A stretch of 57,825 bases of DNA from Bacteroidales bacterium. GTDB taxonomy: Bacteria > Bacteroidota > Bacteroidia > Bacteroidales > JAADGE01. Location of the stretch: assembly GCA_021648725.1 (NCBI GenBank), contig JAKISF010000022.1, positions 1-57,825 of the forward strand, in the 5' to 3' direction. Shown here one piece after another: positions 12,259-30,579 of the stretch. Every line of letters starts with the position of its first letter. Positions within the stretch are counted from its first letter, which is position 1. Position numbers and translations under genes: made by a program. Under the pieces are notes generated by a model, which ran no database searches, was not told the DNA's origin, and worked only from the letters and a program-made list of their open reading frames with translations.

Positions 12259-12261
12259 ATT

Positions 12262-13230
12262 ATGAACTTCCCGATAACACGATTAAGAAGATTACGACAA
12301 AATGAAACATTAAGAAATATGGTTGAAGAAACCATATTAAGACCGTCAGATTTAGTTATGCCTTTATTTGTTTGCCCCGGTTCCGGAATAAAAAACCCGA
12401 TTAAATCAATGCCCGGCAATTTTCAGCTTTCTGTAGATATGATGGTTGAAAACTGTAAAGAACTATACGGAAGAGGCGTAAAATCAATTTTGCTTTTTGG
12501 AATCCCGGAAGAAAAAGATGAGTGCGGGCTTGTTGCAACAAACGATGATGCTATTGTTCAACGAGCTATAATTGCAATAAAAAAAGAACTCCCCGAGATG
12601 TTCATAATTGCAGATATTTGCAACTGCGAATATACAACACATGGTCATTGCGGAACTATTGTAGATGGAGATGTACACAATGATTTAACCTTAGAAACGC
12701 TCTCTAAACAGGCGGTTTCATTTGCAAGAGTAGGAGCAAATATGGTAGCACCAAGCGATATGATGGATGGCAGAGTTGGTCATATGAGAGCAGAACTCGA
12801 TAAAAACGGGTTTTATAAAATGCCGATTATGTCTTATTCCGCAAAATATGCCTCTGCTTTTTACGGACCGTTTAGAGATGCGGCGGATAGTGCTCCTCAA
12901 TTTGGAAATCGAGCCACATATCAAATGAGTCCGTCAAATTCCGATGAGGCTCTCAGAGAAATAGAACAAGACATTGTAGAGGGAGCTGATATTGTAATGG
13001 TTAAGCCTGCATTAAGCTACTTAGATGTTATTCGCAGAACTAAAGACACATTTAATATGCCTATCGCAGCATACAACGTAAGCGGTGAGTTTTCTATGGT
13101 AAAAGCTGCTGCTGCAAATGGGTGGATAGACGAAGAGAGAATAGTTAAGGAGATTCTGACATCAATAAAAAGAGCCGGTGCCGATATCATACTATCTTAC
13201 CACACACAAGAAATTATTGATAAATTATAA
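12262..13230 (+). CDS. hemB: Porphobilinogen synthase (delta-aminolevulinate dehydratase), zinc type
   Basis: The enzyme joins two molecules of 5-aminolevulinate to make porphobilinogen. The 322-residue sequence has both Schiff-base lysines: Lys195 in SYSAKYASAFYGPFRDA and Lys248 in VMVKPALSYLDV. Cys120, Cys122 and Cys130 in ICNCEYTTHGHCG form the catalytic zinc site, so this is the zinc-dependent rather than the magnesium-only type. Numbering is close to E. coli HemB. It sits 3 bp after hemD and 11 bp before hemL within the operon. Confidence 0.97.
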   Translation: MNFPITRLRRLRQNETLRNMVEETILRPSDLVMPLFVCPGSGIKNPIKSMPGNFQLSVDMMVENCKELYGRGVKSILLFGIPEEKDECGLVATNDDAIVQRAIIAIKKELPEMFIIADICNCEYTTHGHCGTIVDGDVHNDLTLETLSKQAVSFARVGANMVAPSDMMDGRVGHMRAELDKNGFYKMPIMSYSAKYASAFYGPFRDAADSAPQFGNRATYQMSPSNSDEALREIEQDIVEGADIVMVKPALSYLDVIRRTKDTFNMPIAAYNVSGEFSMVKAAAANGWIDEERIVKEILTSIKRAGADIILSYHTQEIIDKL

Positions 13231-13241
13231 AATAAAATAAA

Positions 13242-14531
13242 ATGCAATTTAGTAAATCGATAAAGGAATTTAAAAATGCAAATAATTATATTCCGGGAGG
13301 CGTGAACTCTCCGGTAAGAGCATTTAAAAGCGTAAATGCCGACCCTGTATATATCAGTCACGGAAAGGGTTCAAAAATTTATGATATAGACGGAAATGAA
13401 TATATTGACTATGTGTCATCGTGGGGCCCGTTAATACTAGGGCATGCTTTCCCGAAAGTTGTTAATGCAATAAAAGAAGCTGCAGAAAAAGGAACTAGTT
13501 ACGGAGCACCGACAATTATTGAGAGTAAAGTTGCTGAGTTGATAACACAAATGGTTCCGTCCGTTGATATTGTAAGGATGGTTAATTCCGGGACTGAGGC
13601 AACTATGAGTGCATTACGTTTAGCTCGAGGTTACACAAAAAGAGAAAAAATAATAAAATTTGAAGGAAACTACCACGGTCATGCTGACAGCTTTCTTATA
13701 AAAGCCGGCTCCGGAGCTATTACACTTGGTTTGCCGGACAGCCCCGGTGTTACAAAGGGAACGGCAAAAGACACATTATTAGCAAAATACAATGACTTAG
13801 CATCTGTAGAAAACTTATTTAAACAAAATGACAAAGAAATTGCCGCAGTTATTGTAGAGCCTGTTGCCGGTAATATGGGCGTAGTTCCTCCAAGCAAATC
13901 TTTCTTAAAGGGGTTAAGAGACATAACAGAAAAGCACGGGGCATTATTAATCTTTGACGAAGTTATTACAGGATTCAGATTAGCAAAAGGCGGAGCACAG
14001 GAATATTATAATGTAATGCCGGACCTTACAACACTCGGAAAAATTATCGGAGGAGGGTTGCCGGTAGGTGCATACGGCGGGAAAAAAGAAATCATGAAAA
14101 ACTTAGCTCCGGAAGGGTCTGTTTACCAAGCAGGAACATTATCAGGAAATCCGTTAGCAATGCATGCCGGTTATGCAATGCTTAATGAACTTAATACAAT
14201 CCCGAACATTTACCCTGAATTAGAACGTAAAGCAAAAATATTAGCTTCCGGAATCGAAAACAATTTAAAAGAAACAGGAGTTAACGGTTTGGTAAATCGT
14301 GTCGGCTCAATGATGACATTATTCTTTACAAATGAAGATAAAGTAAATTCGTTTGATTCTGCTGTGAAATCAAATACAAAACAATATTCACATTATTTTC
14401 GTTTGGCATTAGAAACCGGAATTTATTTAGCGCCTTCACAGTTTGAGTGTGCTTTTGTTTCATACGCTCAAACAGATGAAGAGATCAACAGAACAATTGA
14501 GGCAAACCTTAATGCTTTAAAACAACTATAA
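13242..14531 (+). CDS. hemL: Glutamate-1-semialdehyde 2,1-aminomutase
   Basis: This 429-residue PLP enzyme converts glutamate-1-semialdehyde to 5-aminolevulinate, the step after HemA. Lys267 in [18 protein letters not shown] is the PLP-binding lysine. Other class III aminotransferase features are [16 protein letters not shown] near residue 115, [13 protein letters not shown] near residue 139 and [13 protein letters not shown] near residue 236. The N-terminal [13 protein letters not shown]-type segment (here [13 protein letters not shown]) is specific to HemL. The operon order places it after hemB although it acts earlier in the pathway. Confidence 0.97.
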
Positions 14532-14541
14532 ACATTAAAAA

Positions 14542-15573
14542 ATGAATTCAATATTTACAGATACAATAAACGGAAAACCTCACAACAGGCCCCCGGTATG
14601 GTTCATGCGTCAAGCCGGCAGGGTTTTACCGTCATACTTGTCCCTAAAAGAAAAGTACTCTTTTCGAGAAATGATGCATGACCCGAATTTGGCAGCAGAA
14701 GTTACTTTACTCCCTGTTCATGATTTAGGAGTAGATGCTGCCATCCTGTTTTCGGATATACTTGTAATTCCCGATGCAATGGGTATGGGTTTGGAATTTA
14801 CGGATGCCGGACCGATTTTTGAAAATCCGCTGAAAGATGTAAGTTCGCCTTTCTCAAAATTAAACCCTGACCCCGAAAAACTGAATTATATATATGATGC
14901 AATTGATGCAATCATCAATAAACGTCCCAAAAACATTCCTTTAATCGGATTTTGCGGCGGTCCGCTTACGGTTCTTGTATATATGATTCAAGGGTTAAGT
15001 ACTAATCATTCTTTTCCTGATGCAATAAACTTCTTTTATAAAAATAAAAAAGAAACAAAAAAAATTATTGCTGCCGTAACAGAGCTGTCTGTTGAATACT
15101 TAAACAAACAAGCCGATCACAAAATTGATGTTTTTCAATTATTTGAAACTCATGCCGGCTTAGTTCCGGTAGATTTATATGAAGAATTGTTCATGCCTTC
15201 GGTTAAAAAAATAGCAAATGCTGCAAAAAAGAAGAATTTACCGTTTATTTTCTTTCCGAAAGGTTTAAGCACCGGTTTAAATTTGTTGACACCGGAGCAC
15301 TGTGATTTTGTGGGTATTGACTGGCAAATAGGAATAAATGAAGCTCGAAAGCTGGTACATCCCGAAATTGGAATTCAAGGAAATTTAGATCCGAGATTAC
15401 TTTATGCCGAACAAGAAGTTATTGAAGAAACGCTTAAGAGGTATATTGATTTCGGCAGTGAAAATAAAGACTGGATTTTTAACTTAGGACACGGGTTTAT
15501 ACCCGGCATTCCTTATGAAAATGCTAAATTTCTAACTAACTGGGTCAAAAACACCAACTGGAAAAGAAACTAA
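14542..15573 (+). CDS. hemE: Uroporphyrinogen decarboxylase
   Basis: The 343-residue product decarboxylates the four acetate side chains of uroporphyrinogen III to give coproporphyrinogen III. Diagnostic motifs are PPVWFMRQAGRVLPSY at residues 14-29, the catalytic-aspartate segment AAILFSDILVIPDAMG near residue 67, GFCGGPLTVLVYM and the C-terminal NLGHGFIPGIPYENA. It lies 10 bp after hemL and 1 bp before hemN, which indicates one transcript. Confidence 0.97.
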   Translation: MNSIFTDTINGKPHNRPPVWFMRQAGRVLPSYLSLKEKYSFREMMHDPNLAAEVTLLPVHDLGVDAAILFSDILVIPDAMGMGLEFTDAGPIFENPLKDVSSPFSKLNPDPEKLNYIYDAIDAIINKRPKNIPLIGFCGGPLTVLVYMIQGLSTNHSFPDAINFFYKNKKETKKIIAAVTELSVEYLNKQADHKIDVFQLFETHAGLVPVDLYEELFMPSVKKIANAAKKKNLPFIFFPKGLSTGLNLLTPEHCDFVGIDWQIGINEARKLVHPEIGIQGNLDPRLLYAEQEVIEETLKRYIDFGSENKDWIFNLGHGFIPGIPYENAKFLTNWVKNTNWKRN

Positions 15574-15574
15574 A

Positions 15575-16945
15575 ATGATAAAAGATTTATTAATAAAATA
15601 TAATCAGCCGGGGCCAAGATATACCAGTTATCCTCCGGCTAATTTTTTCACACAAGAATTCACAGAAAACGATTACAAAAGGGCGTTAAAAAATTCTAAT
15701 GGCGAAAAACCGGAAAGCATTTCTTTATACTTTCATGTTCCGTTTTGCTCGAAAATGTGTCATTTTTGTGGTTGTAACACAGAATTGCTGGACAATAAAA
15801 GCGTGTTAGAAAAGTATTTTGACGCTTTGGTGAAAGAAATTGATACAATCGGTCAAACACTGTCAAAAAGCAGAAGCGTTACTCAGATTCATTGGGGCGG
15901 CGGCACACCAAATTCTGTGGCATTTCGCTTTATTGAAAAAGTAATGAAAAAAACAAATGTCCATTTTTCTGTTTCAGAAAATGCTGAGATTGCTATGGAG
16001 TGCAGCCCTTCAAACTTAAGCAAAGATTATATAAACAAATTAAGAGGTATTGGGTTTAACAGAATAAGTCTTGGGGTTCAGGATTTTAACGAAGATGTTC
16101 TTAATGCTGTAAATAGGGCATTACCAAAGTATCCGATTGAAGAAATTGTATCCGATATAAGAGGTGCCGGTTTTGAGGGAATTAATATTGATTTGATATA
16201 TGGTTTGCCGCTTCAAACAAAGGAAAGTTTTTTAAACACAATTAAGCAAACTGTTAAAATTAAACCGGACAGAATTGTTACTTTTTCGTATGCCCATGTT
16301 CCTTGGGTTAAATCTGCACAAAAAAAACTTGAAGTATTTGGCTTGCCTAAACCGGAAGAAAAACTGGATATGCTTTTAACCGGCTATAAAGAACTGCTTG
16401 ACTCCGGTTATGAAGCTATTGGGATGGACCATTTTGCATTACCCGGCGATGAACTGGCTGTCGCAAAGAGACAAAAACTTCTTCATCGGAATTTTCAAGG
16501 ATATTGCACAAAAGAAACAACAGGTCAGGTGTATGCTTTCGGTTCTACCGGGATAAGCCAAATGCAGGGTGCTTATTCACAAAACACAAAAAGCACATTG
16601 CAATATATCAAACTTGTCAGTGAAAGCGGTTTTGCTGTGGAACGAGGATATACATTGTCAAAAGAGGAAAAAATTATCAAGGAAATGATTAATGAGATTA
16701 TGTGCAACGGAGTTCTTGATTTTAATGAATTTGCAAAAGAACAGAATACGTCTGCCGACACGATTAAAAAAATATGCAACTTTGATGAAAAGAAACTTTC
16801 TAAGTTTATTAGTGACGGGTTAATGAGCTATTCAAATAATAAATTAATAGTTACTGAGACAGGAATGATGGTTGTGAGAAATATAGCAATGTCTTTTGAC
16901 CCGAATTTAACTAAAAATTTGAATATGTACTCAAAAACTATTTAA
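15575..16945 (+). CDS. hemN: Oxygen-independent coproporphyrinogen III dehydrogenase
   Basis: This 456-residue radical SAM enzyme converts coproporphyrinogen III to protoporphyrinogen IX without oxygen. The cluster ligands are Cys58, Cys62 and Cys65 in PFCSKMCHFCGCN. The following GCN separates true HemN from the HemW-like chaperones that share the fold. Other elements are the SAM-binding HWGGGTPN, MECSPSNL, SLGVQDFNEDVL and the HemN-specific C-terminal domain. No oxygen-dependent HemF is present in the window. A 76-bp gap, the longest inside the operon, separates it from the next gene. Confidence 0.96.
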   Translation: MIKDLLIKYNQPGPRYTSYPPANFFTQEFTENDYKRALKNSNGEKPESISLYFHVPFCSKMCHFCGCNTELLDNKSVLEKYFDALVKEIDTIGQTLSKSRSVTQIHWGGGTPNSVAFRFIEKVMKKTNVHFSVSENAEIAMECSPSNLSKDYINKLRGIGFNRISLGVQDFNEDVLNAVNRALPKYPIEEIVSDIRGAGFEGINIDLIYGLPLQTKESFLNTIKQTVKIKPDRIVTFSYAHVPWVKSAQKKLEVFGLPKPEEKLDMLLTGYKELLDSGYEAIGMDHFALPGDELAVAKRQKLLHRNFQGYCTKETTGQVYAFGSTGISQMQGAYSQNTKSTLQYIKLVSESGFAVERGYTLSKEEKIIKEMINEIMCNGVLDFNEFAKEQNTSADTIKKICNFDEKKLSKFISDGLMSYSNNKLIVTETGMMVVRNIAMSFDPNLTKNLNMYSKTI

Positions 16946-17021
16946 TTTGATAATTATTCTGAAATCTTGATTACTTACAAATTTCAAATCATAATTGCAT
17001 TCAAATTAAATATCCAATATA

Positions 17022-17465
17022 ATGGAAGAAATTTATCCGTATTTTATTAAGTTTCATGTAGTTTTCAGTATTATATTTCTATTAGTTGCTGTCGGAATTT
17101 CAGGACATTCTCTTTTTGGATGGTTATATAAAAAACAATATGGATCTTTTGAAAAGAAACTTAGATATACATTTTTGATTTTCTTATATTTTGATTTGAT
17201 TTTAGGAATAATATTATATTTTTTTCTTCAAAAACCTAATGAAATCATTACGGCAGAACAAGCAATGAAATACTCATCTTTAAGGTTTTGGGCTATACAA
17301 CACTTTTCAAATATGGTTTTTGTAGTAATATTAAGTCAAATCGGAAGCATTTTTATTAAAAAAACTGCAAAACCTAATAAAAAGTTTAAATATTCCTTTC
17401 TTTATTTTGGAGTAGCAACATTAATAATTCTTGTATCTGTAGGGCTCTTTGCTTTACGTAAATAA
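17022..17465 (+). CDS. Small four-helix membrane protein in the hem operon, 'cytochrome b'-like family
   Basis: The 147-residue product has four predicted membrane helices (about residues 8-33, 46-69, 90-111 and 124-144). The helix arrangement and the text SLRFWAIQHFSNM resemble short Bacteroidota proteins often labelled cytochrome B or hypothetical; I recall this from the family rather than from a search. Three histidines, His12, His29 and His94, lie within or beside helices and could bind haem. The gene sits between hemN and hemH, so a role in handling porphyrin or haem, or in electron transfer for porphyrinogen oxidation, is plausible. It does not match the HemJ signature: it is too short and the HemJ WxAGLFYLPR element is absent. 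Function unproven. Confidence 0.7.
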   Translation: MEEIYPYFIKFHVVFSIIFLLVAVGISGHSLFGWLYKKQYGSFEKKLRYTFLIFLYFDLILGIILYFFLQKPNEIITAEQAMKYSSLRFWAIQHFSNMVFVVILSQIGSIFIKKTAKPNKKFKYSFLYFGVATLIILVSVGLFALRK

Positions 17466-17476
17466 CACTCCCGAAA

Positions 17477-18496
17477 ATGTCAAATTTAAAACCTACACGA
17501 GCAGTTTTACTTATTAACATAGGTTCGCCAAACTCTTATAAAACCAAAGATGTCAGGCGGTATTTGAGAGAATTTCTAAATGATAAGAGGGTAATAAATA
17601 TTCATCCCTTACTTCGTTTCATTCTTGTAAACGGAATAATTGTTCCGTTCAGAGCTAAAAAGTCAGCCGGAAAATATAAAGAAATATGGTCAAACAATGG
17701 CTCTCCGCTTATATTTAACAGCATTGAACTGTCTGTAAAACTTCAGGCAGCATTTAAAGATAATGCAGATATATATATGGCTATGAGATACGGCAACCCG
17801 GGAATAAAAAAAGTGTTGGCAGAAATTAAAAGAAAGCAGTATTCTGAATTAATAGTTTTTCCCATGTATCCTCAATATGCCTCCTCTACTTCCGGCTCTT
17901 CAATTGAAAAGGTATTCGACAAAGTTAAGTTCTGGGAGAATATTCCAAATATAAAGATCATTCATGAGTTTTGGAGAAACCCCATATATATAAATACTTT
18001 AGCAGACAAAATTAAAAACTCTGATTTAGATCATTTTGACCATCTAATAATTAGTTTTCACGGGCTTCCTTTAAGTCATGTATATAAAACCCATGAAAAC
18101 AAAACTTGCAATGATTTGAATTGTCTTAATGAGATGAATAACAATAACAAATATTGCTATCAGTCTGCTTGTTACAGAACCGCTGAGCTATTGGCAAAAA
18201 AGATTAACATCTCAAAATCAGATTATTCCGTAGGTTTTCAAAGCAGGCTGTCTAAAAACTGGCTAACTCCTTTTACTGAAGAATTGTTGATTGACCTTGC
18301 AAAGAAAAATAAAAAAAAGATATTAGTCGTTTGTCCTTCTTTTGTTGCAGACTGTTTAGAAACGCTTCACGAAATTCAGATTGAATACTCCGAGCTATTT
18401 AAAGCAAGCGGAGGAGAAACCCTAAAGCTTGTTTCTTCTTTAAACAGTGATGATCCTTGGGTTGAAAACTTAAGAAATATAATTTTGCCTTTTTGA
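17477..18496 (+). CDS. hemH: Ferrochelatase
   Basis: The 339-residue enzyme inserts Fe2+ into protoporphyrin IX to complete protohaem. His195 in IISFHGLPLSHV is the metal-binding catalytic histidine, and the second signature, CLETLHEIQIEY, carries the catalytic glutamate near residue 297. The N-terminus VLLINIGSPNS and MYPQYASSTSGS are also diagnostic. Cysteines in the segment TCNDLNCLNEMN through YQSACYR may hold a cluster or be incidental. It ends the operon and is followed by a strong hairpin at 18548-18606. Confidence 0.95.
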   Translation: MSNLKPTRAVLLINIGSPNSYKTKDVRRYLREFLNDKRVINIHPLLRFILVNGIIVPFRAKKSAGKYKEIWSNNGSPLIFNSIELSVKLQAAFKDNADIYMAMRYGNPGIKKVLAEIKRKQYSELIVFPMYPQYASSTSGSSIEKVFDKVKFWENIPNIKIIHEFWRNPIYINTLADKIKNSDLDHFDHLIISFHGLPLSHVYKTHENKTCNDLNCLNEMNNNNKYCYQSACYRTAELLAKKINISKSDYSVGFQSRLSKNWLTPFTEELLIDLAKKNKKKILVVCPSFVADCLETLHEIQIEYSELFKASGGETLKLVSSLNSDDPWVENLRNIILPF

Positions 18497-18666: not shown

Positions 18667-19455
18667 CTAAAAAATTGTAATATAAGTATCCTTGTGCCTT
18701 TTTTGAGAAACTTTTATTTGTCCGCAGGTTTCGGTGTTATAATCAAGAACAATCGGCTTTTCACCGTCAATATTTATGGTAATTGTTCCTTCCGTCGGAT
18801 ATGTACACATTCCGGAAGTTGCAAGGAACTCAACTTTCATTCCTTCAATTTCATACGAAAAATGTTGTCCTTTTCTGTTAACACCGTCTGCTCCTCCTAC
18901 AATTTCAATTTTGAACCCGTTAAGAATACTGAATACATAAGTAATATCTGCAGAATTATATATTACAGAAGTTCCGTCTGCATAAACAATTTTGAAATTT
19001 TCGGCAGCAATGCCTATATAAAATCCCAATAAGCCGGAAGACACCGTAAATGTCAATTTTCCCGAAACCGACTGTCCTTCAATAGAGTAGTTTATAAATT
19101 CAATTGTTAAAGATGCAGATGTTGTGTTTGCATCATAAACAGTTTCGTCTCCTGTTACTCTTATTGTTCCGTTTCGAGTAATTCCATAGTCATCAGTACA
19201 GTCAATCCATGTCAGTTCAAACCCGTTGTTTGTAATGACAGTATAATTAAACGAGCACGCATAGAACTGTTCTTTTATGGCTTTTCCTCCGCCGGTACCG
19301 CTGTTACCCAATGCAAATGCATCTGCCATAATATAACTTCCTCTTGCCGCATCTTCTGCCGATTGAGAATCTGCGTCATCTTTTTTACAAGAGTTTAATG
19401 TAAATAAAACTCCTGTAATTAAAAGGGTTGTTATTAAAAATAGTTTTTTCTTCAT
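18667..19455 (-). CDS. Lipoprotein of unknown function
   Basis: The 262-residue product has a type II signal peptide with the lipobox LNSC (cysteine at residue 23) followed by KKDDAD. The acidic residues after the cysteine fit the surface-export pattern described for Bacteroidota lipoproteins. The mature part is rich in T, S, G and beta-strand patterns (FTVSSGLLGFYIGI, GTITINIDGEKPIVLDY) and probably forms a beta-sandwich. No domain was recognised. It is the last gene of a five-gene minus-strand envelope cluster, 65 bp after the 109-residue protein gene, and may share its promoter. Confidence 0.75.
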   Translation of the reverse strand: MKKKLFLITTLLITGVLFTLNSCKKDDADSQSAEDAARGSYIMADAFALGNSGTGGGKAIKEQFYACSFNYTVITNNGFELTWIDCTDDYGITRNGTIRVTGDETVYDANTTSASLTIEFINYSIEGQSVSGKLTFTVSSGLLGFYIGIAAENFKIVYADGTSVIYNSADITYVFSILNGFKIEIVGGADGVNRKGQHFSYEIEGMKVEFLATSGMCTYPTEGTITINIDGEKPIVLDYNTETCGQIKVSQKRHKDTYITIF

Positions 19456-19520
19456 AGTGAATTAATTTTAATTTATAAACCGGTTAATAATAGTCTTTAA
19501 TAATACACAAATATAATTGT

Positions 19521-19850
19521 TTACCCTGAAATTAAAACATTAAGCATTTTATTTAAAATTTCTGCTTTTTGAAGAATAATATACACAATAGCTGCCGTAA
19601 AAAAAACAATTATTGCAAGTCTGATATTTGCGGCTTTTTTTTGTTTTTTTGTGTCGCCATGGTTATAAGAGCGGTTAAACTTTCCTTTAATTTCCGGCTT
19701 GTACTCTCCTTTTTGTAAAAGTTCTTTTTGTTCTTTATACTTATTAACTTTTTTCTCCAGTTCTTCTTTTCGTTTATCATAGTACAGAGGCTTGTATTCA
19801 AACCTGCTGTGGTTCGGCAATTTTATAAATTTCGGAAGTCGTAAAGCCAT
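19521..19850 (-). CDS. Small membrane-anchored protein with basic/coiled-coil N-terminus
   Basis: The 109-residue protein has a soluble, highly charged N-terminal region (residues 1-75, with the segment RFEYKPLYYDKRKEELEKK) and a single membrane helix at about 76-95 (IRLAIIVFFTAAIVYIILQ). I recall similar short proteins with a YxPxYYD segment near the N-terminus in other Bacteroidota, but no function is assigned to them. The inside-positive charge puts the N-terminus in the cytoplasm. It lies 23 bp after the DUF5723 gene on the same strand. Confidence 0.7.
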   Translation of the reverse strand: MALRLPKFIKLPNHSRFEYKPLYYDKRKEELEKKVNKYKEQKELLQKGEYKPEIKGKFNRSYNHGDTKKQKKAANIRLAIIVFFTAAIVYIILQKAEILNKMLNVLISG

Positions 19851-19873
19851 TTTAGTGTAATAAGTTTTAAAAA

Positions 19874-21349
19874 TTATTCAAGTAAGCCGATATCGTATTT
19901 GTTTCCGCAAAGTAAGAAGTTAACACCAAAACTTATATTTATTCTTTTTGTGTTTTTTATCCAGTTATCAGACATTTTGCTTTCGTTCATAACCCAAAAA
20001 GGGGCTGAAAAATTATCGGTTAAAAGATACATCTGAAACGGCCCGAGTTTATATGCTGCTCCCATTCCTATATTATTAGCCAACCCGTCCATTAAAGAAT
20101 AGCTGAACGTGTATGACCAGCCCCTAAAAAAGTTTGCATTTGCAGACAGTGTATATGATGAATATAATTTACTGTTTAAAATTGCTCCTTTATAAAGCAG
20201 TCCAAAATCTAACCAATCCGTGGCAATAACATTTGCTCCGATATAAATTTTTGTATTAAGACCTGTTGTATATGCAAGTTGTTCAACCGTTGGGTTAAAT
20301 ACTGTCATTAATGTGTCAACCATGTCGGCCATAATTGCACTGTCTAAACCGGCGGTTCCGCTTTGAACATCATTTAAGCTGCCTATGTATTTCCCTATAT
20401 CCAATCCTGAAAACACAAACTGTGCTCTTTGTGTAAGAATTGCAGGGTTCTTTTTCCATTTAATAAAGCCTAAATCAACAACAGACGCAGAAAATAAAAA
20501 CCGTTCGTTTAAAGTGTATTCAATTCCTAAGTCAAATGCTAAACCTCCGTTTCCGGGAAAAATTAAGCCGGAAATATTATTTGTAATATCATAAGGCTCA
20601 ACATTAACACCGGAAATTTGATTTGTTATTGAGTCATATTCAAAATTCCATGCAACCGGAGATGACGTTCTTATTTCAAAATCAGAGTCGAATGTCCAAT
20701 CATACATATCTTCATCTAACGTTGAGGTAAACCAGTCAATTTTCATTTGTTTGGTTTTAAAATTTGCATAACCGGACAGAACCTTTATTCTTCCTCCTAT
20801 GTTAAGGTTTCCGAAAAAGCTTTTTGAAAGACCTACAAATATTTCTCGGTGTGCCATAAAATTTTGTCCGAAATCAAAAGAAAGAGGAGTTCTGTCGGCT
20901 CTGTAATTACCTCTTCTCAGTTCTATCAATGCTTTTGGATATTCAAAACTTTCTGATATTTTATAGTTAATTCCGAATGTCACAAACATGTTGTTTTGTA
21001 GTGCCAACCCTAAATTAAGAATAGAAAAATCTGTTTCAAGACCTATATTGTTTTTGTTTGTCAGGGCTTTTTCTATTCCGTCTAAATCTATCATAAAGGA
21101 GTCCGGAGCTGACGGATGAATTTTAACCGCATCATTAATTGTAAATCCGGAATGTACTGTATTTAAAGAAAAATTCGGCAAAACCGGGATGTCAATAAAA
21201 AGCTTACAGTTTGCTTGTTTTGCCGGGTTTGTGTTCATGCTTTGCGGAAGATGCTTCATCCAGTACAATGTGTTGTCTTGTGCAAAATTTAAGCTTACGG
21301 TTGAAAAGAATAAGATGAAACTTATAATTATTTTATAAAATTTTTTCAT
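19874..21349 (-). CDS. DUF5723 family outer-membrane protein
   Basis: The 491-residue protein has a Sec signal peptide (cleavage likely after NFA at about residue 23). The mature start is typical of DUF5723: MNTNPAKQANCKLFIDIPVL. Alternating hydrophobic strands fill the rest, for example GLALQNNMFVTFGINYKI and GLAFDLGIEYTL, with a C-terminus like a beta-barrel. Family members are predicted outer-membrane barrels related to the PorP/FadL-like group; their role is not established. It is preceded by a lipoprotein gene 38 bp upstream and followed by the anchored 109-residue protein. Confidence 0.82.
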   Translation of the reverse strand: MKKFYKIIISFILFFSTVSLNFAQDNTLYWMKHLPQSMNTNPAKQANCKLFIDIPVLPNFSLNTVHSGFTINDAVKIHPSAPDSFMIDLDGIEKALTNKNNIGLETDFSILNLGLALQNNMFVTFGINYKISESFEYPKALIELRRGNYRADRTPLSFDFGQNFMAHREIFVGLSKSFFGNLNIGGRIKVLSGYANFKTKQMKIDWFTSTLDEDMYDWTFDSDFEIRTSSPVAWNFEYDSITNQISGVNVEPYDITNNISGLIFPGNGGLAFDLGIEYTLNERFLFSASVVDLGFIKWKKNPAILTQRAQFVFSGLDIGKYIGSLNDVQSGTAGLDSAIMADMVDTLMTVFNPTVEQLAYTTGLNTKIYIGANVIATDWLDFGLLYKGAILNSKLYSSYTLSANANFFRGWSYTFSYSLMDGLANNIGMGAAYKLGPFQMYLLTDNFSAPFWVMNESKMSDNWIKNTKRINISFGVNFLLCGNKYDIGLLE

Positions 21350-21387
21350 TGTTTTGTTTTAAAGAAAATTCAATTCTCGACTATTGT

Positions 21388-22623
21388 TTATTTTGTTGAC
21401 GCATCAAAATCTGCCTTTATTGCAATTTGAACCCCCATTTTATAGCCTCCTAATATTTTAACAAAAAGACCTGTGTTTGAGTTATATGAATTCAACTTTC
21501 CTGTGATAATCATTTTTGAAGCATGTGAGTTTTTTAAGAAGGAGACCCTTTCTTGGTCTAAAAATATTAAAATTTCACTTTCATTTGTAAAAGTAACAAT
21601 TCCTTGTGCATCTGTTTCTGCGGGCAGAAGGTGCCATCCTTCTTCTGTTACGGCAGGGTGTGAAATATCAGTAAAAACTGAATCAACAATGTTTCCTATT
21701 CCTCCTTGGTCTGTTGTGTCGGCAAAATATATTTGAGAATAGCCGTCAATGGGAAATCCGTTATCCAGTCTGATTTTTAGCGTTGCCGATTTAATTTGTT
21801 CATAGGTATCTCCGTCCCAGGCAAAATTCATTGTGTCAGACATAATAATTGTGTCAAGTCGAGCATCAAGCGGTAAGTCAATATCTACACTTATATTCAT
21901 CCTTTCATCTCCGGTTACGCCGAACGGAAGAACCTGAGGGTTATGACTTCCTGTTGATAAATAAAAAGATATAAATCTCGGAACCGGGGCAAAAACATCT
22001 GCTAATACAGGAATTGCTACGGTATCAATAATGATGACGGTATCTTTTCTCGTTCCTTGTACGGTCGGTGCCGGAATATTATACTCCGTATGGTCTGTGT
22101 GAGAAATTGCAAGTGTATCATAATTATAAAATGTAAGAGTATCCATTTTAAAATATGTTACAACCGGAATTTCATTTTCTATTATAAAGCTAAACTTCGG
22201 GTTATCAAAAAACAGCTTTCCGCTTAACATTCTGTCATATACTTTCATTTTAGAAGTGTCGGTAGTAAGTTGGTGTGTGTTAGCCGGCACACTATATCCT
22301 GCAGGTGCGGGATAAACAACCGTCGGGACGGGATACATCTCTCTCATTGTTAAGGAAACAAGGTTTTTATAATACATACGAATATGTATCAGGTCTGTAT
22401 CATCAACTTCAAGCCACAAAGAAGAATCATTTGCCGGTACAAAGTTTATTAAAGTTAATTCTGTATTAACAAGCGGAACTGCAATACTTCCTTCAAAATG
22501 CAAAGAATCGTTTTTCATTTTGCTGAGTTCGTCTAAAGAGAAGTTTTTTCTGCAAGAGTGCAAACTGATTAGGCTAATAATCAGAACACTTACAAAAGAA
22601 ATAATATAAAATTTATTTTTCAT
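21388..22623 (-). CDS. Lipoprotein of unknown function, beta-rich
   Basis: The 411-residue product has a type II signal peptide ending in the lipobox LHSC (cysteine at residue 24) followed by RKN. The mature protein is rich in T, D, V and P and looks like stacked beta-domains. It includes repeated short strands such as DSLHFEGSIAVPLVNTELTL and a C-terminal immunoglobulin-like pattern ending GVQIAIKADFDAS. No family was recognised. It lies 55 bp after the 919-residue protein gene and 38 bp before the DUF5723 gene, so a shared complex with that barrel is plausible. Confidence 0.75.
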   Translation of the reverse strand: MKNKFYIISFVSVLIISLISLHSCRKNFSLDELSKMKNDSLHFEGSIAVPLVNTELTLINFVPANDSSLWLEVDDTDLIHIRMYYKNLVSLTMREMYPVPTVVYPAPAGYSVPANTHQLTTDTSKMKVYDRMLSGKLFFDNPKFSFIIENEIPVVTYFKMDTLTFYNYDTLAISHTDHTEYNIPAPTVQGTRKDTVIIIDTVAIPVLADVFAPVPRFISFYLSTGSHNPQVLPFGVTGDERMNISVDIDLPLDARLDTIIMSDTMNFAWDGDTYEQIKSATLKIRLDNGFPIDGYSQIYFADTTDQGGIGNIVDSVFTDISHPAVTEEGWHLLPAETDAQGIVTFTNESEILIFLDQERVSFLKNSHASKMIITGKLNSYNSNTGLFVKILGGYKMGVQIAIKADFDASTK

Positions 22624-22678
22624 GATATTAAGGTTTAAAATGCCGGTTAAGCAGGTTATTATGCAAATTTAATACTTT

Positions 22679-25438
22679 TTATTTAATCTGGTATTTATAA
22701 AGATAATTATCCTTGTTCCCTACAATCAAAGAAAACTCATCGTCTTCATCAAATCTTGTTATACTGAACAGCCCGGAACCTATTAAGGGAAAGCCTTTAC
22801 AAAGTCTTCCTCGACTGTTTATTAAATATATTTTGTTTTTTGATCCGGTTCCGATTCTTATATCTTTATCGTCAAATTTATATATCGTAATATCGTTAAT
22901 TAAGTTTTCATCATAAGAATATGTAAAAATTCTTTTTTTATTAAGCCCGTTATAAACTTCTGTTTGGTTTTTATCAGTAAAAATATAATCCGGGATTTTA
23001 TCTCCGTTTATGTCTTTATATGAATAAAAATGCTCTTTTGAATAAGAATTGATTGTTTCTTTTTTTATTTTTCCGTTTTCGAAAATTGAATATACCGTTC
23101 CGGAAGGGTTTGTAACCGAAAAATGTGCTTTTGAGAGAGAATTATCCTGCGAAAAATATATGTCACTTTTTTCAGATAAGGGAATATTTGCCTCCGGACT
23201 GACTCTTTTTTCTCCCTTTCTGTTTAATATATAAAGTTTAGAGTTGTCTCTGAAAACAATATAATCTTTATCTTTATTTCTGAAATGCTTAATTTTTCCG
23301 GCAACAACATTTTCCGTTTTCTTAAAATTCCACCCTTCAATTATTTTTCCTTCTTTATTATACAGACTAACTTTTTTGTTTTTAGTTGCAACAAAAATGC
23401 GATAATTCTTATCTTGGTCGTAGTCAAAAATAGAAATCCCGTTTGTTGCGGGTGATTTTAATACAACAGGATATCCGTCTAACCAGTTGCCTTTTCTGTC
23501 GATACAATAAATTTTATTTTTTGTGTTAAATATCAATTGAAGTTTGTTATTCTCATAAAAATCAATCTGGTATATGTTGCTGATAATTCTTCCGTCCAAT
23601 TGTCTTGTCCAAATAATTTTTCCGTTTTTATCAATTAAGTAAATTTTGTCTGCAACGTCTTGGACTACAATTTCTTTTTCTAATGTGTTGTGATTCAGAA
23701 CAATCTGCGGCTTTGTTGCGATTAGGGTGTCTAACCTTACCTCCCAAACAGTTTCGGAAATTTGTTGTTTTTTTGCGTTTAATGACAGTTTTATTGTTGT
23801 GTAAATAGGATAAGAGTCTGAAATAAACTGAATTGCCGGCCCTTGAACAGAAATAAATTCTGTAGCATCTTTATCAAAAAGTTTCTTTTTATTTTTATTT
23901 AATATTTCCATTACTGCATTTTTTGAATGAAATAAATCAATATAAAAGAAAATATTTGATTGATCGGGAAAACTTTTAATAAGAGAATAGTTTTGAGATT
24001 TCCGTTTAAATGTTTTGTCTTTTTCATACGAATCAATTAAAGACTTCAAAGCATCGATATTTTCGCCGAAAACCATAAAGTCATTTATGAAAGTTACGTA
24101 TTCAGCATTAACATCTTTAAAAAAAACACCGAAATACATTTCCGGAAGGTTCTTTTCCGGGATTTTTTTTATCTTATATTCTTCTCCGTTGCTTGAATAT
24201 GTGTAATGATATGTTTTTGTATCTGTTTTTTTTTCTTCTGAGTCCGTTTTTATTAATTTGTTGAAAAAAATTTCTGCTTTTGTTTTGTTATTATATTTTA
24301 TAAAAATAAACCTGTTTTGTTTTGCTCCGGTTTTAGTATAGTCTTCATAAACAAATGAAATTTCATTTGAGGTAAGTTCATACAGAGTGTTTTCATCGTC
24401 TGTCAGGTTATATTTTTTATTAAACGAGGCAAGTTGTATTTGATGATTATTTAATTGCCTTATTCCTCCCAGATATTCTTCATATTTATATTTAAAATTA
24501 GAACCGCTTCCTATGTTTAATATTAAAAATGAAGATGTTTTTTCGGGTAATATTCCGATTGTTTTACTTTTCTTAGGGTTTACGTCTTTAAACAGGCTTA
24601 AATATTGCATTTCGGGCTTAAGGTTTGTATGTCCTGTTATTATTATTTCTTTTCGTTTAATTGTTAAATCAAAAGCGGACCAATCTGCAAACCTTTGAAG
24701 CAATAATATTTCGTCTTTAAAAGAGCTGTTTAAAGAATAGTTTATAAATTTAAAGAACATTTTATAATTAATGTATATTGTTGCATCATTTTGCCCGTTA
24801 TTTTCTTGATATAAACTTTTAAAATTATTGTCGGAAAAATATGATGCTCCGCTGTTTATGTTTTTTATTGCTTGTTGTATTAAAATCTCCGAACGACTTA
24901 ATAAAAAATAATCTTCATAAAAAGTATAAAAAACTTCAAACTTATTTGATTTGTATTTTTGATTATATATTTCTGCTCCCGCAAAACTTATTTTATTTAA
25001 TTTAGAATCTCCGACAAGGCTCAATATCGCATCGTTAAGTTCTTTTTTTTCTGTGTTTTTTCCGGAAAATCCTGTTGAGAATAAAAAATCTACATCTTTT
25101 TGACCGGAGAGATGTGCTGAAAAAATTACTGTTTTTTTATTGAGAAAGTTTTTAAACGTATTGTTTTTCCTTATTAAAGAGTCTATAAACAAAAAATCAC
25201 TTTTAAAGTTTTTTGTAAGTTCCAGGTTTGAAAGCAACCCTTCTATATCTTTATTTTTTGTTATTTTTTTAGTTAAATAGGAAAAATCTTCTGTTTCAAT
25301 AATAAAGGCTGCTTTGTTCGGAATTGCATTTATTAAAGGAGAAAGTTGTCGTTTTTCTTTACCGAAATAAACAGAAACAAAAAGGACTGCTGCAACAGCA
25401 ATTACGGAAACTACCAGAAGAGCTTTATTGTTAAACAT
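22679..25438 (-). CDS. Membrane-anchored DUF3352-like protein with C-terminal beta-propeller
   Basis: This 919-residue protein has one N-terminal membrane helix (residues 5-24) and then an exported region. Residues about 35-560 resemble DUF3352-type proteins: an early AIPNKAAFIIETEDF, repeated KAEIFFNKLI-like helices and VTFINDFMVFGENIDALKSLI. Residues about 600-919 contain repeated blades of the form IYLIDKNGKIIW, IYCIDRKGNWLDGYPV, VSLYNKEGKIIEGW, LYILNRKGEKR and IYLINSRGRLCKGFPL, as in PQQ- or FG-GAP-like propellers. It is the first of five envelope genes and lies 161 bp after dusB. A substrate- or partner-binding role at the cell surface or periplasm is inferred. Confidence 0.75.
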   Translation of the reverse strand: MFNNKALLVVSVIAVAAVLFVSVYFGKEKRQLSPLINAIPNKAAFIIETEDFSYLTKKITKNKDIEGLLSNLELTKNFKSDFLFIDSLIRKNNTFKNFLNKKTVIFSAHLSGQKDVDFLFSTGFSGKNTEKKELNDAILSLVGDSKLNKISFAGAEIYNQKYKSNKFEVFYTFYEDYFLLSRSEILIQQAIKNINSGASYFSDNNFKSLYQENNGQNDATIYINYKMFFKFINYSLNSSFKDEILLLQRFADWSAFDLTIKRKEIIITGHTNLKPEMQYLSLFKDVNPKKSKTIGILPEKTSSFLILNIGSGSNFKYKYEEYLGGIRQLNNHQIQLASFNKKYNLTDDENTLYELTSNEISFVYEDYTKTGAKQNRFIFIKYNNKTKAEIFFNKLIKTDSEEKKTDTKTYHYTYSSNGEEYKIKKIPEKNLPEMYFGVFFKDVNAEYVTFINDFMVFGENIDALKSLIDSYEKDKTFKRKSQNYSLIKSFPDQSNIFFYIDLFHSKNAVMEILNKNKKKLFDKDATEFISVQGPAIQFISDSYPIYTTIKLSLNAKKQQISETVWEVRLDTLIATKPQIVLNHNTLEKEIVVQDVADKIYLIDKNGKIIWTRQLDGRIISNIYQIDFYENNKLQLIFNTKNKIYCIDRKGNWLDGYPVVLKSPATNGISIFDYDQDKNYRIFVATKNKKVSLYNKEGKIIEGWNFKKTENVVAGKIKHFRNKDKDYIVFRDNSKLYILNRKGEKRVSPEANIPLSEKSDIYFSQDNSLSKAHFSVTNPSGTVYSIFENGKIKKETINSYSKEHFYSYKDINGDKIPDYIFTDKNQTEVYNGLNKKRIFTYSYDENLINDITIYKFDDKDIRIGTGSKNKIYLINSRGRLCKGFPLIGSGLFSITRFDEDDEFSLIVGNKDNYLYKYQIK

Positions 25439-25599: not shown

Positions 25600-26577
25600 T
25601 TAGTTTCCGTATCGTTTTCTTATTGTGTCTAAAATTTCATTAATTTCATTTTCATCCAAAGATGTCAGCAGTTTTAATCTTAGCTGTTTAAAATCTCTTA
25701 AGCCTTTAAAATATATGGCAAAATGTCTTCTCATTTCAAAAAAGCCTGTTCTGTTTCCTTTTATTTCTATTGATTTATGAAAATGATTTCGTGCAATTTC
25801 TACTTTTTCTTCGATTGTAGGTTCGGGTAAAGTTTCTCCGGTTTCTAAATAATGTCTTATTTCTTTAAAAATCCAAGGTTTGCCTATTGTTGCCCTTCCT
25901 ATCATTATACCGTCAACACCATAATTGTTAATTGCTTTTTGGGCATCTTCTCCCGAATTTATATCACCGTTTCCTATTATCGGAATTTTTATTCTGGGGT
26001 TATCTTTTACTTTTTTAATTAATGTCCAATCAGAAGCTCCTTTATAAAGTTGTGCTCTTGTTCTGCCGTGAATTGTTAATGCCTTTATTCCAGTATCTTG
26101 CAGTTCCTCGGCAATTTGATCTATAATAAGGCTCTCGCTGTCCCAGCCCAAGCGAGTTTTTACCGTAACCGGCAGTTTTACGGCATTAACAATTGCTTTT
26201 GTCATTTCAATCATTTTCGGAATATCTTGTAACATTCCGGCACCGGCACCTCTTGTTGCAATTTTTTTTACGGGACATCCGTAATTAATGTCAATTAAGT
26301 CGGGGTTTGCTTCTTCGGCAATTTTTGCAGCCTCAATCATTGCATCAATTCTGTGTCCGTATATTTGTATGCCTACAGGTCTTTCTTTCTCTTCAATCTG
26401 AAGTTTCTTTAAAGACTTGTCAATATTTCTTATTAATGCTTCGGAAGCAACGAATTCTGTATATAGAATGTCGGCACCGAATTCTTTGCAAACTTGCCTG
26501 AATGAACGATCGGTAATATCTTCCATAGGAGCAAGCAACAAAGGGAAATTGTTTATTTCAATATTGCCGATTTTCAT
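25600..26577 (-). CDS. dusB: tRNA-dihydrouridine synthase (DusB type)
   Basis: The 325-residue FMN enzyme reduces uridines in the tRNA D-loop to dihydrouridine. It begins with PLLLAPMEDITDRSFRQVCKEFGAD. The catalytic cysteine is in INYGCPVKKIATRGAGAGML. The family elements VTVKTRLGWD, IHGRTRAQLY, GNGDINSGEDA and GIMIGRATIGKPWIF follow. The AxMAGVTD-like start and C-terminal layout fit the DusB/NifR3 group best; the exact subgroup is less certain. It is followed by the envelope gene cluster and preceded by glyS, all on the minus strand. Confidence 0.92.
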   Translation of the reverse strand: MKIGNIEINNFPLLLAPMEDITDRSFRQVCKEFGADILYTEFVASEALIRNIDKSLKKLQIEEKERPVGIQIYGHRIDAMIEAAKIAEEANPDLIDINYGCPVKKIATRGAGAGMLQDIPKMIEMTKAIVNAVKLPVTVKTRLGWDSESLIIDQIAEELQDTGIKALTIHGRTRAQLYKGASDWTLIKKVKDNPRIKIPIIGNGDINSGEDAQKAINNYGVDGIMIGRATIGKPWIFKEIRHYLETGETLPEPTIEEKVEIARNHFHKSIEIKGNRTGFFEMRRHFAIYFKGLRDFKQLRLKLLTSLDENEINEILDTIRKRYGN

Positions 26578-28433: not shown

Positions 28434-28898
28434 ATGAAGTGTCTATATTTTATTTTTGCCGTTACACTTATCTTTTCATGCTCAAGTGTTCAAAAAGTCG
28501 GAATAAAAGGAGAAAAGTATAAAATTTCAAAAGAGTTAAATCAATTTTTACTTGATTTTGAATCAGCTGCAAGAAATCATAAAAAAGGAGCGATGTTAAA
28601 TCTTTTGGACAAAGATTACAAAAAAGAGCAGCATGACGAAATGTTAGAAGGCAGAACAAACCAGTTTCTTAATGAGTTTTTTGCCGGATACCTTATAAGT
28701 GAAAGCAAATTTAAATCTCCGGGATTTGAAAGTATTATTTCTTTAAATTTTGTAAGCATTAAACAAATCGACGAAAATTCTTTTGACGTTTCTTATATTA
28801 TTAAAAGTAAGGATTTTGAGTTGGTACGAGAATGGGAAATAATAATTAGAAATGTTAACGGAAAACAAGTTTACGGGTTAGTCGGTGCATTCGGGTAA
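28434..28898 (+). CDS. Small lipoprotein, paralogue of the gene at 30115
   Basis: The 154-residue product has a short type II signal peptide with the lipobox IFSC (cysteine at residue 16) followed by SSVQ. The mature part starts with KYKISKELNQFLLDFESA and has an alpha+beta pattern with a central LLDKDYKKEQHDEML, similar to NTF2-like folds in length and layout; that comparison is only a guess. It shares start, length and roughly two in five residues with the product of 30115-30579, including SKELN, LLDK.YKKE and EFF.G, so the two arose by duplication. No known family recognised. Confidence 0.75.
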   Translation: MKCLYFIFAVTLIFSCSSVQKVGIKGEKYKISKELNQFLLDFESAARNHKKGAMLNLLDKDYKKEQHDEMLEGRTNQFLNEFFAGYLISESKFKSPGFESIISLNFVSIKQIDENSFDVSYIIKSKDFELVREWEIIIRNVNGKQVYGLVGAFG

Positions 28899-28948: not shown

Positions 28949-29998
28949 ATGATATTTACCAAAAAAAGTATAGAGAAAAATTTGAAAACCGTTACGGAAG
29001 AAAACGAATTAATTACCGGATTTTTAGCAATAAAAAGCAATGTTTATAAACGCGGAGTTTTAGCAATAAGCTCATTCGGACGGTTTATTGTAACAAATGC
29101 TCCGCTTATCGGGAAGTTAAAAATTAAAGATTCTTTTGTTTCGGAGGATGTTGAAAGTATTGACTTTGTTTCGGAAATAAAAATGGGCGGACCCCATGTT
29201 CATATTTTAATGAAAATAAAAGGAACAGACACACGATTTACTGCTTTTTTCCATCCGGTAAACAATGATGTTGCCGTAAACGAAATTATTCAAACAATAT
29301 ATAAAGCAAACCCTTCAGCGATACCTGATTATTTGAAAGATAAAGAAATTATTGACTTTTTAACAACAAAAGACGGGATTTATAAGTTAACAACAAACGA
29401 AATTATTGTTCAAAAATATTCAAATAATAAAATTGAAGATAAGGAAGTAATAAATGTAAAAGATATTACTTATTTTGATGTTTATCCGCAAAAAATGGGC
29501 AGCAAAGGGATTTTATACCTCGAAGTTAACAATGAGCCAAGGGTTGTAAAGTATGAAAAACCAACAGAAGAAAATAGTGTGAAGACAATGCTTTCAGGAG
29601 GAACATCGGCAATGTTCGGTCTCGGAAAGTTAGCAAAAATGTTTTCTGACTCTGAAATAAGGGTTAACGGTCCTTCATATATGGGTAATGATGAAGAAGA
29701 GCTTGTTACGGAATTCGCAACAAAAAAATCAAAAGGAATAGAAGAGTTGGGAAATAAAATATTCAGGCTTACCGACAAAAATATTTTTTTGCTGAAAAAA
29801 GAAAAAGGAGGAAAACTGAAACCGACAGAGAAAATTGCAATCAATAATATTAAAACGTATCAAAAAATGTCAGAAATTGGTAATAATGTAACCGTTTACG
29901 GACTTTCAATTGTTACAAAAGAAAATGTAACTTATAAATTTTGGAGTTTGGATTTTATTGATAAGGTTATGGATGAGCTTAAAAGACTTTTTAACTAA
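28949..29998 (+). CDS. Protein with repeated PH-like domains, function unknown
   Basis: The 349-residue product has no signal peptide and is probably cytoplasmic or at the inner face of the membrane. Three segments look alike: residues about 20-115 (LAIKSNVYKRGVLAISSFGRFIVT and on), about 125-215 (IYKLTTNEIIVQKYSNNKI and on) and about 265-349 (IFRLTDKNIFLLKKEKGG to a C-terminal helix). Each runs as beta-strands closed by a helix, the plan of bacterial PH-like domains. Between the second and third is a G/M-rich segment (MLSGGTSAMFGLGKLAKMF) that may touch a membrane. It lies between two paralogous lipoprotein genes. The domain reading is my inference. Confidence 0.65.
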   Translation: MIFTKKSIEKNLKTVTEENELITGFLAIKSNVYKRGVLAISSFGRFIVTNAPLIGKLKIKDSFVSEDVESIDFVSEIKMGGPHVHILMKIKGTDTRFTAFFHPVNNDVAVNEIIQTIYKANPSAIPDYLKDKEIIDFLTTKDGIYKLTTNEIIVQKYSNNKIEDKEVINVKDITYFDVYPQKMGSKGILYLEVNNEPRVVKYEKPTEENSVKTMLSGGTSAMFGLGKLAKMFSDSEIRVNGPSYMGNDEEELVTEFATKKSKGIEELGNKIFRLTDKNIFLLKKEKGGKLKPTEKIAINNIKTYQKMSEIGNNVTVYGLSIVTKENVTYKFWSLDFIDKVMDELKRLFN

Positions 29999-30114: not shown

Positions 30115-30579
30115 ATGAAATATTTTATTATTCTTTTTTCTGTTTTTTTTGTGTTTTCTTGTTCAACAAGTAAGAAAGCAAGTATTTACGGAGGGGATTA
30201 TAAAGTTTCAAAAGAGTTAAACAGTTTTTTAAGTCGTTTTGAGCTTGCGACGAATGAACATAATGAAACATTATTATTGTCTCTTCTTGATAAAAAATAT
30301 AAGAAAGAACATTTTAACAATCTACAAAAAGAAGACAGAGAACATTTTTTTCGGGAGTTTTTTTGCGGAAAGGATATTAAAACCCGACAATATGTTTGCC
30401 CGGCTTTTAATGAAGTTATTTCAATAAGCTTTATCAGTATTTTTCAAACCGATAATGGCAACTATAAGGTAACGTACGCAATTACAACAACATACGAAGA
30501 GTTAGAGTTTATTAGAGAGATTACAGTTAAAACAGTTAACGATGTTGTTGTTTTCGGAATAACCGGAGCTTTGTATTAG
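30115..30579 (+). CDS. Small lipoprotein, paralogue of the gene at 28434
   Basis: The 154-residue product has a type II signal peptide with the lipobox VFSC (cysteine at residue 16) followed by STSKK. The mature region begins YKVSKELNSFLSRFELA and contains LLDKKYKKEHFNNL and HFFREFFCG, closely matching its paralogue upstream. It carries two cysteines in the mature part (in EFFCG and VCPAF) that the other copy lacks. A terminator at 30021-30056 precedes it. Function unknown. Confidence 0.75.
   Translation: MKYFIILFSVFFVFSCSTSKKASIYGGDYKVSKELNSFLSRFELATNEHNETLLLSLLDKKYKKEHFNNLQKEDREHFFREFFCGKDIKTRQYVCPAFNEVISISFISIFQTDNGNYKVTYAITTTYEELEFIREITVKTVNDVVVFGITGALY

Follow-up and report, generated by a model that had tools for sequence, protein, structure and literature searches.

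Do five consecutive genes for envelope proteins, lying on a contig of a Bacteroidales bacterium, encode one machine or a smaller unit with additions? The window analysed here is the whole stretch of 57,825 nucleotides that makes up contig JAKISF010000022.1, contig 22 among the 66 of a 3.24 Mb genome (the source genome, G000). On its minus strand the genes, here called A to E, are arranged in the transcription order A-B-C-D-E (Table 1). The original prediction regarded the set as an envelope operon that supplies the parts of a trans-envelope machine. The comparison of related genomes shows that a five-gene machine is wrong and that a three-gene module plus add-ons is right: A, B and C are proposed to form an old, unstudied outer-membrane unit of Bacteroidota, and D and E come from separate families that joined it within the window's own family (f1).

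At the level of the single genes, the original prediction was accurate. The genes stand in series with gaps of 23–65 bp, the exact values being 55, 38, 23 and 65 bp. A is an anchored DUF3352/propeller protein, with one N-terminal hydrophobic segment, a DUF3352 match over the cut-off (PF11832; E 3.3e-12, 46.2 bits vs a cut-off of 26.8) and a β-propeller match below its cut-off (PF13570, E 1e-12). B and E are lipoproteins, judging from lipoboxes found by eye (LHSC-RKNFS in B, LNSC-KKDDA in E). C is a DUF5723 barrel protein with a full-length Pfam match (PF18990, model positions 1-376; 240 bits vs a cut-off of 26.8, E 8e-71), and D is a small protein with a single C-terminal hydrophobic segment. 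No Pfam match over the cut-off was obtained for B, D or E, and a scan of the B family gave weak matches in one or two members each. The terminator scan placed no site between the five genes on the minus strand, all three minus-strand sites lying inside A. Promoters could not be placed, because the Bacteroidota-type pattern occurs in the window at chance level (7 vs 6.98 expected); the sigma-70 promoter scan is unsuited to Bacteroidota. Genes were called mechanically, as the longest non-overlapping open reading frames (ORFs). For lipoboxes, MutL and signal cleavage, simple pattern searches or visual inspection were used; the lipobox pattern chooses too early a cysteine in at least two loci (L102 and L138). 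The gene names mutL, Dus, GlyRS, rnhB and those of the heme genes are our own provisional assignments, some of them made by eye.

Conservation was followed in 60 genomes, namely the source genome and 59 relatives, several of them close. Matches were found for A in 48 of them, for the C profile in 50, and for the B, D and E profiles in 44, 42 and 36, respectively. The A locus was examined in 40 relatives, out of 47 in which A was matched. A, B and C stand in order on one strand in 26 of these 40 loci, made up of all 16 in f1 and 10 of the 24 outside it; at one of the 26 (L050), two short mechanically called ORFs separate A from B. Seven relatives with A fall outside the 40 (G009, G010, G016, G017, G028, G034 and G056). 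Among these, G009 carries A-B-C-D consecutively, G034 has the end of A followed by B and C, and G017 has A-B and then the contig end; G010 offers a contig-edge scrap only, and G028 and G056 partial A matches only. The upstream neighbours of A differ between families, with a 325-aa and a 518-aa gene usual in f1 and other genes elsewhere, so A-B-C is often kept together while its surroundings change. When the neighbours were clustered, without annotation by family, no further partner gene recurred widely near A-B-C. A divergent PriA-like gene had been considered as a mark of the A locus in f41 and elsewhere and was dropped, as the f41 gene has no match among the neighbours of 810-858 aa at L048, L052 and L053. 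At L042:2350-5090 (G004), A is spread over two frames with stops in the overlap, which points to a frameshift or an assembly error.

The pairing of B and C is found also where A lies apart, as B and C are then adjacent on another contig (e.g. G030:C72, G055:C13, G044:C2, G038:C23, G049:C27 and G059:C124). Among 82 C genes, most of them at loci picked for holding C so that the counts are not a random sample, 77 have a neighbour upstream on the same strand; 66 of those neighbours are predicted lipoproteins, often overlapping C or only a few bases away. The remaining 11 are six unrelated genes, two genes of A type and three B genes whose start is wrong or truncated (L092, L139 and L148). Five C genes have no such neighbour, two of them (L146 and L152) standing at a contig start. 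Among 148 genomes sampled across the phylum, 98 have a DUF5723 match, 94 of them over the cut-off. C is present in 39 of the 44 genomes with A vs 59 of the 104 without A (Fisher p 1.2e-4, from a hand tally that ignores kinship and in which many of the 44 A matches are weak or partial). In f41, five genomes have A; four of them also have C (G139, G158, G181 and G197) and G061 has A without C. In all four with both genes, a propeller-less DUF3352 protein of ~530 aa is encoded directly 5′ of C, with no B between them, and A is thus tied to C independently of B.

The position is different for D and E. D lies beside A at 13 of the 40 loci and E at 10 of them (12 E copies), all in f1, and the window's genus has the five genes together in many genomes; at the 24 loci outside f1, neither gene was found beside A. 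There, the two families lie elsewhere. In nine of 15 D loci away from A, D is directly 5′ of a mutL-like gene, recognised by an IAAGEV-type motif that we take to indicate MutL; two of the other six also have a mutL-like gene, with D missed by the caller, and four, three of them in f1, have none. The D family has a conserved YKPxYYDxRKE-like stretch and stands 5′ of mutL-like genes in L190, L196-L202 and L204, and in the further pairs of L139 and L145. E-family matches occur in 20 of 21 f1 genomes, the source genome included, and in 16 of 39 others, for which reason a restriction of the E family to f1 was rejected. They are mostly on contigs other than that of A; the source genome has a second E-family lipoprotein (G000:C20:49527-50282), and in G003 and G004, both of the window's genus, E lies away from A. 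In G015, D and an E match are side by side, away from A-B-C. Since D and E are beside A only in f1 and their families lie elsewhere otherwise, they joined the operon within f1. The operon of the original prediction therefore stands for A-B-C, which is kept across families, and falls for D and E; across the 40 A loci, it is these two genes and not A-B-C that relatives fail to retain together. The lipoprotein export signal (LES) for the cell surface is C-X-K-(D/E)2 according to the part of PMC5080379 available. The window's E tail, C-K-K-D-D, fits it, and 11 of 13 E copies have at least two acidic residues among the six after the cysteine.

Which kind of barrel C forms was addressed through its predicted structure. 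The model, built from the window sequence and four relatives, has a mean predicted local distance difference test score (pLDDT) of 55.4 and a predicted TM-score (pTM) of 0.57. In structural alignment the top 26 rows are FadL-like, as classed in part by title, with Z values of 17.3-20.9, followed by OmpG as the next class at 16.4. The alignment with CymD has a Z of 20.9 and a root-mean-square deviation (rmsd) of 4.3 Å over 299 aligned residues, and that with FadL a Z of 20.5; in the Foldseek search, too, the highest TM-scores among the rows listed belong to FadL-type chains. In the alignment of C sequences, N41 of an NPA motif is invariant and P42 nearly so, and the FadL mutants N33A, P34A and ΔNPA are among the structural matches. 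On this low-confidence model, C is assignable as a FadL-fold barrel with an N-terminal NPA motif. It is not a member of the FadL transporter family PF03349 (Toluene_X), for which neither C (E up to 1) nor the source genome has a match. Membership of PorV_fam (NF033709) was likewise rejected: C has no match, and the matches in the source genome are on other contigs, PorV itself being a separate gene over the cut-off on G000:C16. Compared with the C profile, this PorV gave 68% over 69 C-terminal columns, and two other PorV-family sequences of the source genome 1.9% and 9.6%. The BamG-like family A9, which is not proven to be BamG, gave 4.5% and 23.6%; two unrelated pairs gave 0.1-0.2%. No BAM chain was matched when the C profile was searched against PDB sequences. 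The stretch before NPA is ~17 residues in C vs ~39 in A9, with cleavage placed by eye. The source genome does encode a barrel resembling BamG, the N-terminal tail of which is long and conserved (G000:C5:40154-41590); this barrel had no PDB match alone and only TbuX as a profile, and because of the latter it cannot be called BamG with certainty. C is probably neither BamG nor PorV.

The length of B varies widely. HMM-labelled B proteins have 181-957 aa, one cut at a contig end apart, and lipoproteins in the B position reach 1279 aa. The tail after the cysteine recurs across long and short forms, as would be expected if it were a docking site. Very long lipoproteins stand 5′ of C in L137 and L138 (G022) and in L143 (G028), with 966, 978 and 1279 aa, and these might form surface structures. 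The B profile had a sole, weak match among PDB sequences, 4h3w (E 0.055), in a sequence set that may lack the BAM chains. The B-position lipoprotein of L136, 22 bp 5′ of a C gene, matches 4h3w at E 2.6e-6; it is a B by one profile (E 6.3e-7) and unlabelled by the iterated B profile. Another B-position protein gave no match to 4h3w. The structure is entered as a 'hypothetical protein', and the literature search on it found no description of its function. Outside f1, an acidic tail (at least two acidic residues in the six after the cysteine) is present in 34 of 48 B-position lipoproteins vs 24 of 104 other lipoproteins of the same loci (p 2.5e-8, uncorrected for kinship). Judging from these tails, B is probably at the cell surface in most lineages, its place in f1 being uncertain. 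In the source genome, SusD_RagB (PF07980) has no match, which to our knowledge is unusual for the phylum. The window's B tail, C-R-K-N-F, does not fit the LES pattern as given in the available part of PMC5080379; without a SusD match in the source genome, there was no calibration of the signal for this lineage.

Among 33 aligned A members, DUF3352 was found in 17 and PF13570 in 31 (E 0.01). The model of A has a mean pLDDT of 54.8 and a pTM of 0.39, with an α/β segment of better pLDDT at residues ~380-470, in the DUF3352 region. The rows of its fold comparison span residues 558-919. The propeller aligns with 9cnx_B, a BAM complex chain, at a Z of 19.6 and an rmsd of 3.6 Å over 305 residues; BamB is one of many propellers at Z 19-20, and unrelated ones such as WDR41 (21.0) and Rsa4 reach the same or higher values. 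Since Cake8 and BamB, which it resembles, have eight blades, the modelled propeller is probably eight-bladed. A search of the PDB with A alone returned two ribosomal-protein matches only (E 0.3-0.6), and the A profile mostly propellers. Most A proteins in the window's order, as well as those of f41 and f48, have one N-terminal hydrophobic segment without a lipobox. Three versions from f44, presumably a Flavobacteriaceae-like family, and three from f61 look like lipoproteins, with a lipobox at the N-terminus, so the inner-membrane foot, one of the main grounds for a trans-envelope machine, is not constant. A second DUF3352 protein of the source genome (742 aa; G000:C18:60000-61667, L128:6443-8671) matches the DUF3352 part of A only; versions of ~690-790 aa occur in many relatives, with neighbours of their own.

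How might the three proteins work together? We tentatively favour a complex of a barrel and a lipoprotein, of the type seen in BamG/BamH or PorV, in which A is the periplasmic propeller partner. C would sit in the outer membrane as a FadL-fold β-barrel. B would dock on C through the conserved, lipidated tail at its N-terminus, in the manner of BamH on BamG, and A, in the periplasm, would meet the C/B complex through its BamB-like propeller, held by the N-terminal membrane anchor here and probably by a lipid in some other lineages. The likeliest job of the unit would be to assemble the barrel-lipoprotein complex and keep it at the cell surface, A serving as the adaptor in the periplasm. Gene order and its retention, domain content, lipoboxes found by pattern and predicted folds (models of low confidence) are shown by the data, whereas physical contact of A, B and C, the location of B and the function of the set are inferred. 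A number of observations weigh against this reading. The models of both A and C are of low confidence (mean pLDDT 54.8 and 55.4), Foldseek ranks general porins first for C by E-value, and the profile comparisons of C with PorV-family and BamG-like sequences are weak. A lies away from B-C at 14 of the 40 loci, in G016, which belongs to f1, and in the f44 genomes examined, and five of the 148 genomes have A without C. Six of the 77 upstream neighbours of C are the unrelated genes mentioned above, and three C genes lack a same-strand upstream gene for reasons other than a contig end. Finally, only two of 18 B tails in f1 are acidic, and the window's CRKNFSL has no acidic residue, so B may be periplasmic in the window's lineage.

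The main rival, which we consider rather doubtful, is that C is a FadL-type channel for a hydrophobic compound, with B as a substrate-binding or gating lipoprotein and A as the periplasmic acceptor. The FadL fold and the NPA hatch motif speak for it, as do the best Z values of C, which are those to the hydrocarbon and fatty-acid channels CymD, FadL and TbuX. However, mature C has, by eye, ~17 residues before NPA vs 32 in FadL numbering, so part of its hatch would be missing. The widely varying length of the partner lipoprotein suits a docking role better than substrate binding, and Bacteroidota have reused the same fold for non-transport roles in PorV and BamG. It is unlikely that A-B-C assists the biogenesis of outer-membrane proteins or surface lipoproteins, with other proteins as its clients and not B alone. 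The counterparts of its parts, which are the BamB propeller, FadL-fold BamG and PorV, and the barrel-docked lipoprotein (available parts of PMC12578637 and PMC12611786), would suit such a role, but C was matched in only 98 of 148 genomes, against the reported universality of BamA, D, G and H (PMC12611786, same part), and fold resemblance alone does not show function.

Distinctly unlikely is a functional unit of B and C alone, with A as a long-standing genomic neighbour: the loci at which A stands apart (14 of 40, G016 and the f44 genomes examined) agree with it, but A is linked to C both in the window's order, where B lies between the two, and in f41, where B is absent. Slighter still is the chance of a dedicated surface-lipoprotein exporter, in which C would pass and keep the lipidated tail of B, and A would hand B over; if this were true, A-B-C would count among several flippases that are each specific to a barrel, a matter still open in the field. 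The least probable reading, a trans-envelope machine of all five proteins, is refuted as a conserved system, and a complex within f1 is possible. In its favour is the co-occurrence of all five genes in many genomes of the window's genus. Against it, D and E are missing from the 24 A loci outside f1, the D family is often 5′ of mutL, and the E family is on other contigs, even in G003 and G004. The side-by-side D and E match of G015, apart from A-B-C, and the variation of A's membrane foot between lineages argue in the same direction. Found in 98 of 148 genomes, C usually follows a lipoprotein gene and often has a periplasmic propeller protein nearby, which makes the favoured unit a compact test case; it also gives a context to 4h3w and to the DUF5723 and DUF3352 families.

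Table 1. Positions in the window of the five genes and of two segments of A.
Feature	Position	Strand	Description
Gene A	22679-25438	minus	919 aa; N-terminal single-span anchor, DUF3352 region, C-terminal propeller
Gene B	21388-22623	minus	411 aa lipoprotein (Cys24), directly 5′ of C
Gene C	19874-21349	minus	491 aa DUF5723 outer-membrane barrel, predicted FadL fold, NPA at residues 41-43
Gene D	19521-19850	minus	109 aa, one C-terminal hydrophobic segment; add-on
Gene E	18667-19455	minus	262 aa lipoprotein, tail CKKDDAD, surface-export-like; add-on
A residues 5-25	25364-25426	minus	hydrophobic N-terminal helix (signal anchor), without lipobox
A residues 559-919	22682-23764	minus	β-propeller; PF13570 and fold matches

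Upstream of A, 161 bp separate it from a same-strand gene of 325 aa (25600-26577). At the other end, a plus-strand run of heme-synthesis-like genes (11455-18496), which by eye we take to be hemD, hemB, hemL, hemE, hemN and hemH, converges with E at its 3′ end. Elsewhere in the window, two similar proteins of 154 aa, lipoproteins by eye (28434-28898 and 30115-30579, plus strand), flank a 349-aa protein (28949-29998); the first of them and the 349-aa protein have no Pfam match.

The original prediction did not recognise the set as a described system, and wider searches for a matching envelope system gave none among the papers listed, which concern the β-barrel assembly machinery (BAM), the translocation and assembly module (TAM), Tol-Pal, Lol, the type IX secretion system (T9SS) and other subjects. 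DUF3352, DUF5723 and their accessions are unnamed in the literature searched, which omits most subscription journals. At the level of the parts, there are resemblances. PorV of type IX secretion is, like C, a FadL-fold barrel, and 6h3i_F, which we take to be PorV, aligns with C at a Z of 19.6 with 14% identity over 265 residues. PorV differs from C in that C lacks a PorV_fam match and the source genome encodes PorV separately. BamB resembles residues 556-917 of A as a propeller (Z up to 19.6), whereas A is far larger and carries a DUF3352 region plus a membrane anchor. C also aligns with the BAM chains 9n2d_B, 9hjm_F and 9hiv_F, taken as BamG, at Z values of 17.9, 17.6 and 17.3.

The closest parallel to B-C is the pair BamG/BamH, for which, as below, we refer to the available parts of PMC12578637 and PMC12611786. 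BamG is a FadL-fold outer-membrane barrel paired with a lipoprotein (PMC12578637, PMC12611786), and the lipidated tail of BamH lies in a groove of BamG (PMC12611786); paralogues, BamG2-BamH2, are encoded in a putative operon (PMC12578637). Differences are equally evident. BamG has a long conserved N-terminal tail that C lacks, and BamA, D, G and H are reported as universal in the phylum (PMC12611786), whereas C was matched in 98 of 148 genomes. The genes bamG and bamH have widely separated locus numbers in F. johnsoniae and B. thetaiotaomicron (PMC12578637, PMC12611786), whereas B and C are usually adjacent. That B-C is BamH-BamG itself was considered, and the evidence did not establish it. 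The S-layer lipoprotein BT1927 and the barrel BT1926 also form a lipoprotein with a putative anchor or secretion barrel, as B-C may do (PMC12578637); they were dropped as members of the family, since BT1926 is predicted to be an eight-stranded barrel (PMC12578637). The pairing of a barrel with a lipoprotein is thus of a known kind, and what is new is A as its partner.

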